Shown: piece after piece, positions 25,525-29,361 of the stretch
Numbering within the stretch: the first letter of the stretch is position 1
How the letters are laid out: each line of letters opens with the position of its first letter
Source: an uncultured Verrucomicrobiota bacterium
Lineage (GTDB): Bacteria > Verrucomicrobiota > Kiritimatiellia > RFP12 > UBA1067
Direction of reading: 5' to 3'
Assembly (NCBI GenBank): GCA_946610035.1
Contig: CAMOCC010000014.1
Span: forward strand, 1 to 45,999
DNA length: 45,999 bases
The notes under the pieces: model-generated
The model's input: only the letters and a program-made list of their open reading frames with translations
Database searches by the model: none
Told to the model about the DNA's origin: nothing
Program-made: the position numbers and the translations under genes

Positions 25525-28500
25525 ATGAAGACATACCTGACAACCACGGTGTTTCTTGCCGCAGCGCTAGGGGCGGGGAGCGCATGCGCCGACGGCGGAG
25601 TGCAACCGCTCGACCTCTCCGACATCGCGGCATCGCGCTGCATCGCCGGAAACACTGCGGCGGGAACGCCGTCGCCCTACAGCAACCGTGGTGCGGTGAC
25701 CGCTTTCAACGGAAGCGGGATCGCCGCGGACGGCACTTGCGGCGTGACTGCGGACAACGAGATGTTCATGCTGTCATCGAACGCTTCTGGATCATTCCCG
25801 TGGTACATCCAGGTCGATCTCGGCAAAGTCGTCCGCCTCGACGGCGTGAGGCTCTACAACTTCAACTTCGCAAAGAATGGGACGATCTTCACGGAGCGCG
25901 GCGTCAGGGAGTTCAAGCTGTATGTCTCCACTGGCGACGGATGGAAGACGACGGCAGCCGACATCCAGTCGAACTATTCGCTCGTTCTCTCCAATCGCCT
26001 TGCGCGTGCAACCGGCACTGCCGACTACAAAGGCGAGTATTTCTCGTTCGACAAGCCCGCCGCCGCTCGTTATGTCGCGCTCGTCGCGCTTGACGACTGG
26101 GACGATTCGAAGAATGTCCTTAACTACAACGGCATTTCCGAGATTCAGCTTTTCCCAGCGGAGGATCTGCCGCGCTTTTCCGTCTGTTGCGTCGGCGACT
26201 CGATAACGGAAGGTGCGAATTCTTCCGGGGCCGCGAATAAGTGGACGTACCGCACGTACCTTTCCGCAATGATCGCCGAGAGCGGATTCGGAGACGTGGA
26301 GTGGAAGGGTTCGCATGTTTCGCCGAACTCCGGCAACGATCTTCCGAGCGAAGGCTGGAGCGGACAGAATGCCGAACAGATCGCGAACAAGTACATCGAG
26401 AACGCGGCATCGGATAAGGCTGACGTTCTTCTCCTTCACGCCGGACACAACTACAACGTCGATCCAGATACTGCCAATCCTGCGTACAGGCCAGAGGCGG
26501 AGATAATCGCCGCCGCTACGAACGCTCACGCGCGCATCATCGCCGCGGCTCGCGCGCAGAATCCGAATGTAACTGTCCTTTACGCGAAGGTGATAACGAG
26601 CGGGAAGCTCCCCAAGTACAGCTACATCCCCGCGCTCAACGATGCGATCGGCGCGCTTGCCGCCGAACTGAACACCGCCGCTTCGCCGGTACGCGTCGTA
26701 GATATGGCGGACGGATGGGACTGGACAGTTCACTGCATCGACGACAAGGTTCATCCGACGGAGACCGGCGCGCGGCTCATGGCGTCGAAGTGGTTTGCCG
26801 CGCTTGCGGCGTCGCCGTTCATGAGCGGAACGGATGCGCTCGTCGAGGCGGAGTCGTTTGCGGCGAAGGGCGGATGGGTTGTCGATCCGCAGTTCGTCGA
26901 CGTGATGGGCTCGCCGTATCTTCTCGCGCACGGCATGGGCGAACCTGTCGCAGATGCGGCGACGAGTGTCGAGTTCGGCTTCGGCGGACTCGTCCGCGCA
27001 TGGGTTCGTACCCGCGACTGGACTCCAGACTGGGATGGCGAGAAGCCTGGGCGCTTCCGCCTCGCCGTCGGCGGAACGACGCTTCCGTCGATGCTAGGCA
27101 TTGCGCCTGCCGACTGGGGATGGATTGACGCGGGAATTGTCCGCGTCGAGGCAGGTCCGCAGACTGTCTCTCTTAAGGACCTCACGGGATTCGAGGGACG
27201 CTGTGACGCAGTGTACTTCACGTCCGTCGCCGCGACGAATCCGCCGCCGAACGATGCCGCCTCGCTCGCCGCGTGGCGCGCGGAGAAGCGCGGCGAATCC
27301 GCCGCGCCCGAAGATGTCGTCAATGCCGATCTCGTTGTCGTAGGCGGAGGAATCGCCGGCGTGTGCGCTGCAATCGCAGCGGCGGATGCGGGACTTTCTG
27401 TCGCGATTGTGCATGACCGCCCGATGCTCGGCGGAAACGCTAGCGACGAAATTCGCGTTCGGACGGAGAACGAAGGCGACGAATTTCACTGGATCGTCAA
27501 GGCCGTTAGGAACAACACTAAGAACGCAGAAGACAAGAAGGCCGACGACGCCAACAGACTTGCGGTCGTCGAGTCGTACGGCATCGCCTCGCACCTCGGC
27601 TGGCGCGCGTACGGAGTCGAGACGAACGCGCAGCGGAAGATTGTCGCGGTTGATGCACGGAACATCGAAACTGGCGCGAGGCGCAGGTTCGTCGCGCCGC
27701 TCTACGTGGACTCGACGGGCGACGGTTGGATCGGATACTGGGCGGGAGCTGAATTTATGCTCGGACGAGAGGCGAAGACTGAGTTCGACGAGCCGACGCA
27801 CGGACAGGACGTTGCTGACACGAGTACGATGGGAAACAGCCTCCTCTGGAATACGAAGACAAACGACACTGCCTACGTGTTCCCGTCTGTTCCCTGGGCG
27901 ACGAAGGTGAGCGGAAACCGTGCGGACACCGCAGGCGGCTGGACTTGGGAGGCGGGACTTGATCCTGATGAGGACACAATCTACGACGCCGAGATGCTAC
28001 GCGACCGGCTTTTCCGCGCGATCTACGGAAGCTTCTCCAACACGAAGGCGAAGGCCGGGAACGAGAAGCTCGTCTTCAACTGGGTGCCGTATATCGCAGG
28101 CAAGCGCGAGTCGCGCCGCATAGTCGGCGACTACGTCGTCCGCGAGAAGGACATAATCGACCACCGCCAGTTCGAGGACGCGATTGGAATCGCAACATGG
28201 TCCGTCGACCTTCACCGCAAGGACGGAAACTCGGGATTCATCGCCGCGACGACGCACTACAGGTACGGCAGGTGGTGGATGCCCTATCGTTCGCTTTGCT
28301 GCCGCGACGTGCCGAACCTGTTTCTTGCCGGACGCTGCGCCAGCTACACTCACGTTGCCTTCGGGTCGAGCCGCGTGATGCACGCGGGCGGACAGCAGGG
28401 CGTCGCTGCGGGATATGCGGCTTCGCTCTGCAAGAAGTACGCGTGCTTCCCAAGCGAAATCTACCGCGACGCGGAGAAGACCGTCGAGCTCCAGGCGCTC

Positions 28501-29361
28501 ATCAACAAGAAGAACGAATACACCTGGCCGAAGGTGGAGACTTCGAGGGAGGTTGCGTCCGTCATCGTGGACAATGCGGATGCGTCGGGCGTTGAGATTT
28601 CCGGCGAGTGGCCGGTAAGCAACTACAACTCCGAACGCTATGGAGCGGACTATCTCCACAACAATAAGTTCGCGTCGAGCGATATGTGGGTCAGGTTCAC
28701 TCCGGAGATACCGTCAGACGCGACGTATGTCGTGTCGCTTTTCTGGAACGGAGGCGATTCGCGCGGATCGGCTGTTCCAGTCGAAATCGTCTACGACGGA
28801 GGCGTCGTGACAAACATGGTCGACATGACGCGAAAGTCGTCCGTCTGGAACGCGATCGGCAGATGGCCGTTCAAGAAGGGGAATTCGGGATCTGTACGGA
28901 TTCTAACCAACGGACAGAAGGACAAGACCGTCATCGCAGATGCCGTGAAGTTCGCGATCGTGGAGGAGCTCGATCCGCAGGACATCGACGGGAACGGTTT
29001 GCCCGATGCGTGGGAGCGCAGGCATTTTCTCCAGAACGGCGGAGTCGACCCTGAGGCTGATCCGGACGGCGACGGATTCTCGAACCGCGAGGAGTATCTT
29101 TCAGGGACTGATCCGAACGACGCGGGGTCGCCGCTTTATCTTTCGGATTTTGAAGCGTCCGGAACGCAAATATCGATCACGTGGAAGGGCCTCGCGGGGC
29201 GGACCTACCGCGTGTACAGTTCTGAAACGCTTGATCTCGCGTCGTTCAAGCCTTATGGCGGATTTGTCGAAGGAACGAACGGGGAGATGAAGATTTTGCT
29301 GCAGTCAGCTTCGCCTTCGGCATTTTTCCGCGTCCGCGACGAGACGACGGTGGTGGAGTAA
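25525..29361 (+). CDS. SGNH hydrolase + FAD-dependent oxidoreductase fusion with discoidin/CBM-like and TSP3-like modules
   Basis: SVCCVGDSITEGANSSG (SGNH block I), ADLVVVGGGIAGVCAAIAAADAGLSVAIVHDRPMLGGNAS (FAD GxGxxG), DPEADPDGDGFSNREEYLSGTDPND (TSP3-like). Confidence 0.85.
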   Translation: MKTYLTTTVFLAAALGAGSACADGGVQPLDLSDIAASRCIAGNTAAGTPSPYSNRGAVTAFNGSGIAADGTCGVTADNEMFMLSSNASGSFPWYIQVDLGKVVRLDGVRLYNFNFAKNGTIFTERGVREFKLYVSTGDGWKTTAADIQSNYSLVLSNRLARATGTADYKGEYFSFDKPAAARYVALVALDDWDDSKNVLNYNGISEIQLFPAEDLPRFSVCCVGDSITEGANSSGAANKWTYRTYLSAMIAESGFGDVEWKGSHVSPNSGNDLPSEGWSGQNAEQIANKYIENAASDKADVLLLHAGHNYNVDPDTANPAYRPEAEIIAAATNAHARIIAAARAQNPNVTVLYAKVITSGKLPKYSYIPALNDAIGALAAELNTAASPVRVVDMADGWDWTVHCIDDKVHPTETGARLMASKWFAALAASPFMSGTDALVEAESFAAKGGWVVDPQFVDVMGSPYLLAHGMGEPVADAATSVEFGFGGLVRAWVRTRDWTPDWDGEKPGRFRLAVGGTTLPSMLGIAPADWGWIDAGIVRVEAGPQTVSLKDLTGFEGRCDAVYFTSVAATNPPPNDAASLAAWRAEKRGESAAPEDVVNADLVVVGGGIAGVCAAIAAADAGLSVAIVHDRPMLGGNASDEIRVRTENEGDEFHWIVKAVRNNTKNAEDKKADDANRLAVVESYGIASHLGWRAYGVETNAQRKIVAVDARNIETGARRRFVAPLYVDSTGDGWIGYWAGAEFMLGREAKTEFDEPTHGQDVADTSTMGNSLLWNTKTNDTAYVFPSVPWATKVSGNRADTAGGWTWEAGLDPDEDTIYDAEMLRDRLFRAIYGSFSNTKAKAGNEKLVFNWVPYIAGKRESRRIVGDYVVREKDIIDHRQFEDAIGIATWSVDLHRKDGNSGFIAATTHYRYGRWWMPYRSLCCRDVPNLFLAGRCASYTHVAFGSSRVMHAGGQQGVAAGYAASLCKKYACFPSEIYRDAEKTVELQALINKKNEYTWPKVETSREVASVIVDNADASGVEISGEWPVSNYNSERYGADYLHNNKFASSDMWVRFTPEIPSDATYVVSLFWNGGDSRGSAVPVEIVYDGGVVTNMVDMTRKSSVWNAIGRWPFKKGNSGSVRILTNGQKDKTVIADAVKFAIVEELDPQDIDGNGLPDAWERRHFLQNGGVDPEADPDGDGFSNREEYLSGTDPNDAGSPLYLSDFEASGTQISITWKGLAGRTYRVYSSETLDLASFKPYGGFVEGTNGEMKILLQSASPSAFFRVRDETTVVE

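Follow-up and report, generated by a model that had tools for sequence, protein, structure and literature searches.

The fusion gene and its locus

The window analysed here is the whole of contig C14, 45,999 nucleotides long, from a 3.03-Mb metagenome-assembled genome (MAG; G000, 191 contigs, 88% complete) of an uncultured gut Kiritimatiellia bacterium; the closest relatives with a name are rumen MAGs of the Kiritimatiellae. At 25525-29361 its plus strand, to which all window coordinates of domains and enzymes below refer, carries one continuous open reading frame (ORF) of 1278 aa in which a predicted acetyl esterase of the SGNH type is fused to a domain of the flavoprotein family FAD_oxidored (PF12831). 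The frame opens with a leader (aa 1-22, MKTYLTTTVFLAAALGAGSACA, 25525..25590) that is Sec-like by its sequence and by the position of homologous N-termini; it has no twin arginine, as expected from the Sec assignment in an earlier note on this DNA, and TatC is present in the genome. There follow a discoidin/F5_F8_type_C module (aa 25-212, 25597..26160; Pfam 33.7 bits over aa 88-198, cut-off 28.2), which is kept at 60-95% in L009, L010, L011, L012 and L040; the SGNH module (aa 213-432, 26161..26820; Lipase_GDSL_2 over aa 222-418, 61.9 bits); a CBM35/CBM6-like module (aa 433-592, 26821..27300); the FAD_oxidored domain (aa 593-1005, 27301..28539; 213.5 bits over aa 602-980, cut-off 27); a Golvesin_C module (aa 1006-1148, 28540..28968; 91 bits over aa 1013-1143); and a TSP3_bac motif with the C-terminal tail (aa 1149-1278, 28969..29358; 29.2 bits over aa 1179-1200, cut-off 25). 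Domains of the window proteins were called at curated Pfam cut-offs, and every Pfam-recognised module of the fusion scores above its own, which bears out the earlier architecture of discoidin, SGNH with GDSIT, FAD_oxidored, golvesin and TSP3. That list overlooked aa 433-592, a module without a match in the Pfam scan; CBM35 and CBM6 structures are among the Foldseek matches of this moderate-confidence region of the AlphaFold model. In almost every relative the module stands ahead of FAD_oxidored, and it is a constant partner within this FAD_oxidored clade.

The full architecture recurs in another species (G012, locus L009, 95% identity) and in a different genus (G065, L010, 68% identity); a further copy, in G053, has the same architecture at 92% identity and one frameshift. 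These genomes, like G000, are MAGs (78-92% complete). Since an identical architecture is found in independent MAGs, one of them from another genus, the fusion is no product of misassembly, a doubt that the earlier note had left standing. In both full-length comparisons dN/dS lies between 0.06 and 0.30 for every domain, and every domain is thus under purifying selection. A literature search on PF12831 in glycan loci yielded a Brucella flavoproteome study alone, and further searches yielded nothing on the fusion. The joining of a CE3-like esterase to an uncharacterised flavoenzyme is a real, conserved and new domain combination, a variant of known multidomain carbohydrate-active enzymes.

The gene lies among glycoside hydrolases. 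Directly adjoining it is a protein assigned to GH3 by Pfam (29375..31450) that resembles Xyl3A beta-xylosidases, its best NCBIfam model being xylosidase_Xyl3A (676 bits, below the cut-off of 1250), and that is 99% identical at the same place in G012. Next comes a LacZ-type GH2 beta-galactosidase (31451..34630; Pfam and NCBIfam comparison), whose counterparts beside the fusion clusters of G012 and of G053 are 98% identical and whose counterpart beside the G012 paralogue is 50% identical; both this GH2 and the GH3 remain beside the fusion in G012 and G053. The locus also holds a second Xyl3A-like GH3 (34721..36775, below the equivalog cut-off), a GH31 protein closest to xyloglucan-type alpha-xylosidases (11551..13890; 7kmp 4.7e-123, 2xvg 1.5e-122, 5jou 3.8e-119), a GH30-GH43 fusion whose GH43 half is beta-xylosidase/arabinofuranosidase-like (37854..41678), and genes for a GH2, a GH92, a pectate-lyase-like beta-helix, a GH63-like protein and a GH2-PA14 protein. 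Because the neighbours include two Xyl3A-like GH3 proteins, an alpha-xylosidase-like GH31, a LacZ-type GH2 and a GH30-GH43 fusion, our best guess is that the locus would target hemicellulose, either xylan or xyloglucan, which gives the glycan locus of the earlier note a more definite character. Just upstream of the fusion, at 18644-22057 and 22121-25519, are two large secreted-looking proteins with no significant Pfam domain in the scan; a distant relative in L044 carries an autotransporter passenger repeat (PATR). An Acyltransferase_3 membrane protein (36832-37899) also sits within this degradation locus and overlaps the next gene.

The esterase and flavin halves

The SGNH half keeps its predicted catalytic residues. 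Across an alignment of ten homologues the motifs GDSIT, GWSG (aa 277-280), GHN (aa 307-309) and DKVH (aa 407-410) are conserved, and Ser226, Gly280, Asn309, Asp407 and His410 are invariant in all ten; the outer glycines of GWSG, which corresponds to Block II (GXSG) with the oxyanion glycine, are likewise invariant, except that the context of the first reads GRGG in the distant L015. The predicted catalytic residues are Ser226 in GDSIT (26200..26202; Block I, GXSXT) and Asp407 and His410 in DKVH (26743..26754; Block V). A profile of the module against the PDB returns 5b5s (1.9e-15), 5b5l (7.6e-15) and 2vpt (6e-12), the next best match being at 1.1e-05. Foldseek, applied to the SGNH, CBM and golvesin regions of the AlphaFold model only, places 5b5s first for the moderately confident SGNH region (5.6e-10, TM 0.72 by target length). 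Among solved SGNH enzymes the module is closest to the CE3 acetyl esterases, whose blocks include GXSXT and GXSG and whose substrates are acetyl esters on xylan or oligosaccharides (PMC9487903). Since the SGNH blocks are conserved, CE3 structures are matched first and CE3 substrates are acetyl esters, the module is likely to have acetyl-esterase activity. The deacylase of the earlier note is in this way narrowed to a predicted CE3-like acetyl esterase.

The flavin half matches PF12831 over nearly its full length (profile positions 1-408 of 416). Its dinucleotide-binding motif GGGIAG (aa 607-612, 27343..27360) and the motif LGGN (aa 635-638) are both intact; in a 23-row alignment of homologues LGGN is invariant and GGxxG nearly so. 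The domain is accordingly predicted to bind FAD, and the earlier concern that the SGNH Ser and His or the FAD site might have been lost is not borne out.

How a Sec-exported flavoprotein acquires FAD outside the cytoplasm was posed earlier as an open question. No PF02424 match (ApbE) was found in G000 at its 88% completeness, and three MATE-type proteins (six domain matches) are present there. The periplasmic flavocytochrome c of Shewanella is a Sec-exported precedent. In other bacteria Bfe and YeeO, both of the MATE family, export flavins (PMC5655446). Given such exporters, the three MATE proteins of G000 and the Shewanella precedent, assembly with FAD outside the cytoplasm is plausible and the three proteins are candidate FAD exporters; the question thus has a known kind of answer.

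The other part of the earlier functional proposal, an oxidase, fares less well. Searches of G000, G012, G053 and G065 turned up neither cytochrome bd (PF01654) nor heme-copper oxidase (PF00115), an absence that is suggestive only because the MAGs are incomplete. As these oxidases were not found in the four genomes, a role of the flavin domain as an O2-dependent oxidase seems unlikely.

Recurrence of the fusion and other partners of PF12831

When the SGNH-CBM-FAD part was used as a query at 1e-40, 177 of 346 Kiritimatiellia genomes gave matches, nearly always over CBM-FAD. Copies of the SGNH subfamily number nine in the genus and family, of which seven are joined to the CBM35-like module in a single ORF. 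Five of the seven continue into FAD_oxidored, and the other two, both in G012, end at contig ends 46 aa into the CBM. The fusion in G047 is shorter, reading SGNH-CBM-FAD, and is frameshifted. In G025 the two parts are separate genes on one strand, with SGNH directly upstream of CBM-FAD. Only one of the nine copies lacks a CBM-FAD neighbour: an orphan SGNH gene of G035 (L037:6778-7368, minus strand), which contains an internal TAG and lies in a genome where PF12831 has no strong match. The clade of the window protein in the FAD tree (9 rows, support 100/100) contains both SGNH-bearing and SGNH-free forms, its inner branching being unresolved, and other close relatives have CBM-FAD with one to three golvesins; the G047 fusion stands beside G013 and G025 in a separate, well-supported clade. 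Because FAD domains with a fused SGNH occur in two clades that are well apart, there would have been either at least two fusion events or one old fusion followed by several losses, and the tree is compatible with both.

PF12831 is joined to much else in the genus. It shares ORFs with GH2, GH3, GH5, GH26, GH29, GH43, a GH50-like agarase, GH92, GH97, GH125, PL8, SASA and AXE1 in addition to the CE3-like module, making at least 12 other carbohydrate-active families, with the partner N- or C-terminal (L083, L084, L085, L086, L087, L088, L089, L090, L095, L096, L100, L108, L111 and L114). GH92-FAD fusions occur in several genomes, and the genome of the window itself carries GH92-FAD (L083) and GH26-FAD-GH3 (L088). 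One ORF of 2253 aa reads GH92-FAD_oxidored-GH125-PL8 (L084:1131-7889, minus strand); its gaps, about 4 residues from GH92 to FAD and about 28 from FAD to GH125, leave no room for an internal leader followed by a domain. These shared ORFs make a carbohydrate the likeliest substrate of the flavin domain.

Fusions of other kinds were also seen. PF12831 shares one ORF with the membrane protein CstA and another with an M3 peptidase (L097:3974-7330, minus strand; L110:3568-7305, plus strand), odd partners that may reflect misassembly or real fusions, and is fused to a right-handed beta-helix and to DUF4838 (L118:1157-5191, minus strand; L093:1620-5855, minus strand). The idea that PF12831 is unusually fusion-prone is weakened by a GH3 control from the same genus: about 32 of the roughly 150 listed PF12831 ORFs are at least 900 aa long, and about 22 of the roughly 138 listed GH3 ORFs are at least 1100 aa.

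Proposed function, alternatives and comparison with known enzymes

We favour, at a probability of roughly 0.45, a secreted multidomain enzyme for acetylated hemicellulose fragments in which deacetylation is coupled to flavin chemistry on the sugar that is exposed. The Sec-exported protein would act on acetylated xylan or xyloglucan oligosaccharides, with the discoidin, CBM35-like and golvesin modules holding the glycan. The CE3-like module would strip O-acetyl groups by a Ser-His-Asp mechanism, and the FAD_oxidored domain would then act on the unmasked sugar, most likely by abstracting a hydride from a secondary hydroxyl and passing it to an acceptor other than O2 or returning it later. FAD would be bound non-covalently after export, provided by a flavin exporter. 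The esterase half of this proposal is well supported; we infer the redox half. In its favour are the invariant SGNH blocks and the two comparisons that rank CE3 first, the pairing of the SGNH subfamily with CBM-FAD in two FAD clades, the many carbohydrate-active partners of PF12831, the surrounding hemicellulase genes and the purifying selection on both halves.

Several observations weigh against it. L128 and L131, from genera that are close in the FAD tree, have discoidin-CBM-FAD-golvesin-TSP3 without SGNH, and because these close genera keep the rest without the esterase, the flavin step needs no esterase in cis. Gene fusion is common throughout the lineage, as the similar rate of long ORFs in the GH3 control indicates. 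No electron acceptor was identified, and the locus holds no acceptor or cytochrome partner. We found no PF12831 relative of known substrate, the PDB profile matches being limited to the Rossmann/nucleotide-binding part. Finally, AlphaFold models of CBM-FAD-Golvesin and of a 1126-aa stretch, built from few homologues, have mean pLDDT of 46 and 47. The structural check proposed earlier thus gave a moderately confident esterase region but left the flavin part uninterpretable, and since that model is unusable the relative placement of the two active sites is out of reach.

The commonness of fusion in this lineage is also what speaks for another account, in which two independent hemicellulose-modifying activities are joined for common secretion and targeting, with no sequential chemistry on one sugar. 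The long-ORF counts for PF12831 and GH3 fit it, as do the fusions of PF12831 with CstA and with an M3 peptidase, partners for which successive steps on a sugar would be meaningless. We nevertheless consider it somewhat unlikely, in that the SGNH subfamily nearly always has a CBM-FAD partner: the two are fused in each of two FAD clades, and in a third genome they are neighbouring genes.

Rather unlikely, in our estimation, is a redox-neutral flavoenzyme that would oxidise the sugar transiently, cleave a C-O bond or form an epimer, and return the hydride to it. Such an enzyme needs no external acceptor, which would suit the undetected bd and heme-copper oxidases and the missing acceptor or cytochrome partner, and PF12831 is fused to glycoside hydrolases in both orders. 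GH4 and GH109 are NAD-dependent precedents for a redox-neutral cycle. Oxidation of glycosides at position 3 with subsequent elimination has been reported from other enzyme families (PMC10628242, PMC10646112). A 3-keto route was at first suggested by PF06439, the 3-keto-disaccharide hydrolase family, which is present in the clusters of the G012, G053 and G065 copies; in the G012 and G053 clusters, which are orthologous, it is fused to a second SGNH domain (L044:5323-6720, minus strand, and L046:4363-5760, plus strand; 97% identical). PF06439 is absent from the window, however, and among the matches listed across the genus only 4 of 153 PF12831 lie within 10 kb of a listed PF06439, where a rough density estimate predicts about 3, two of the four pairs being the orthologous loci of G012 and G053. 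With no enrichment near PF12831, a general link to a 3-keto pathway is unsupported and we set it aside.

It is very unlikely that the flavin domain acts on something other than a sugar, for example by reducing phenolic acids on grass arabinoxylan with electrons from outside. Arabinoxylan does carry esterified phenolics, and periplasmic fumarate and urocanate reductases are among the best matches at the Rossmann level. That similarity, however, is confined to the nucleotide-binding part; the esterase half is closer to acetyl than to feruloyl esterases; and the families GH92, GH97, GH29 and GH125, to which relatives are joined, act on substrates free of phenolics. Least probable of all is an artefact or decayed gene, which the MAG data and the frameshift in G053 might suggest, and which we reject in view of the conserved full-length copies in separate MAGs, including one of another genus, and of purifying selection in all domains.

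If the flavin domain does act on sugars, as the coupled deacetylation and flavin chemistry that we favour would have it, an abundant gut lineage uses an anaerobic redox step on plant polysaccharides outside the present CAZy AA classes. The interest lies mainly in this flavin step and its many fusions, which suggest an unrecognised redox step in plant-fibre breakdown and make the large PF12831 family testable, each partner (CE3-like, GH92, GH97, GH29, GH125) pointing to a candidate sugar. More broadly, though we think it unlikely, PF12831 flavoproteins may form a general, uncharacterised redox class of glycan-active enzymes in anaerobic Kiritimatiellia. They would work beside hydrolases, lyases and esterases or be joined to them, and once acyl groups have been removed they might break or isomerise sugars through a redox-neutral FAD cycle.

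Among known systems, the glycoside 3-oxidases of the GMC superfamily perform the kind of FAD-dependent oxidation of a glycoside ring that we propose for the window protein (PMC10646112). They use O2. The window protein has no GMC_oxred domain in a Pfam scan taken down to E 0.05. The C-terminal stretch 905-1037 of the Paenibacillus xanthan lyase 6F2P matches its Golvesin_C module at 6e-25, without the lyase catalytic domain being shared. The CE3 enzymes TcAE206 (5B5S/5B5L) and CtCes3-1 (2VPT) have in common with it the SGNH fold, GXSXT as GDSIT, GXSG as GWSG and the Asp and His of DxxH; they differ in Block III, which is GTND in CE3 and GHNY here, and in that the window esterase is embedded between discoidin and CBM-FAD_oxidored. 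With other PF12831 proteins it shares a full-domain match and the CBM-FAD(-Golvesin_C) core, from which it is set apart by the esterase inserted between discoidin and CBM, an arrangement that this analysis met in two genera of one family only.

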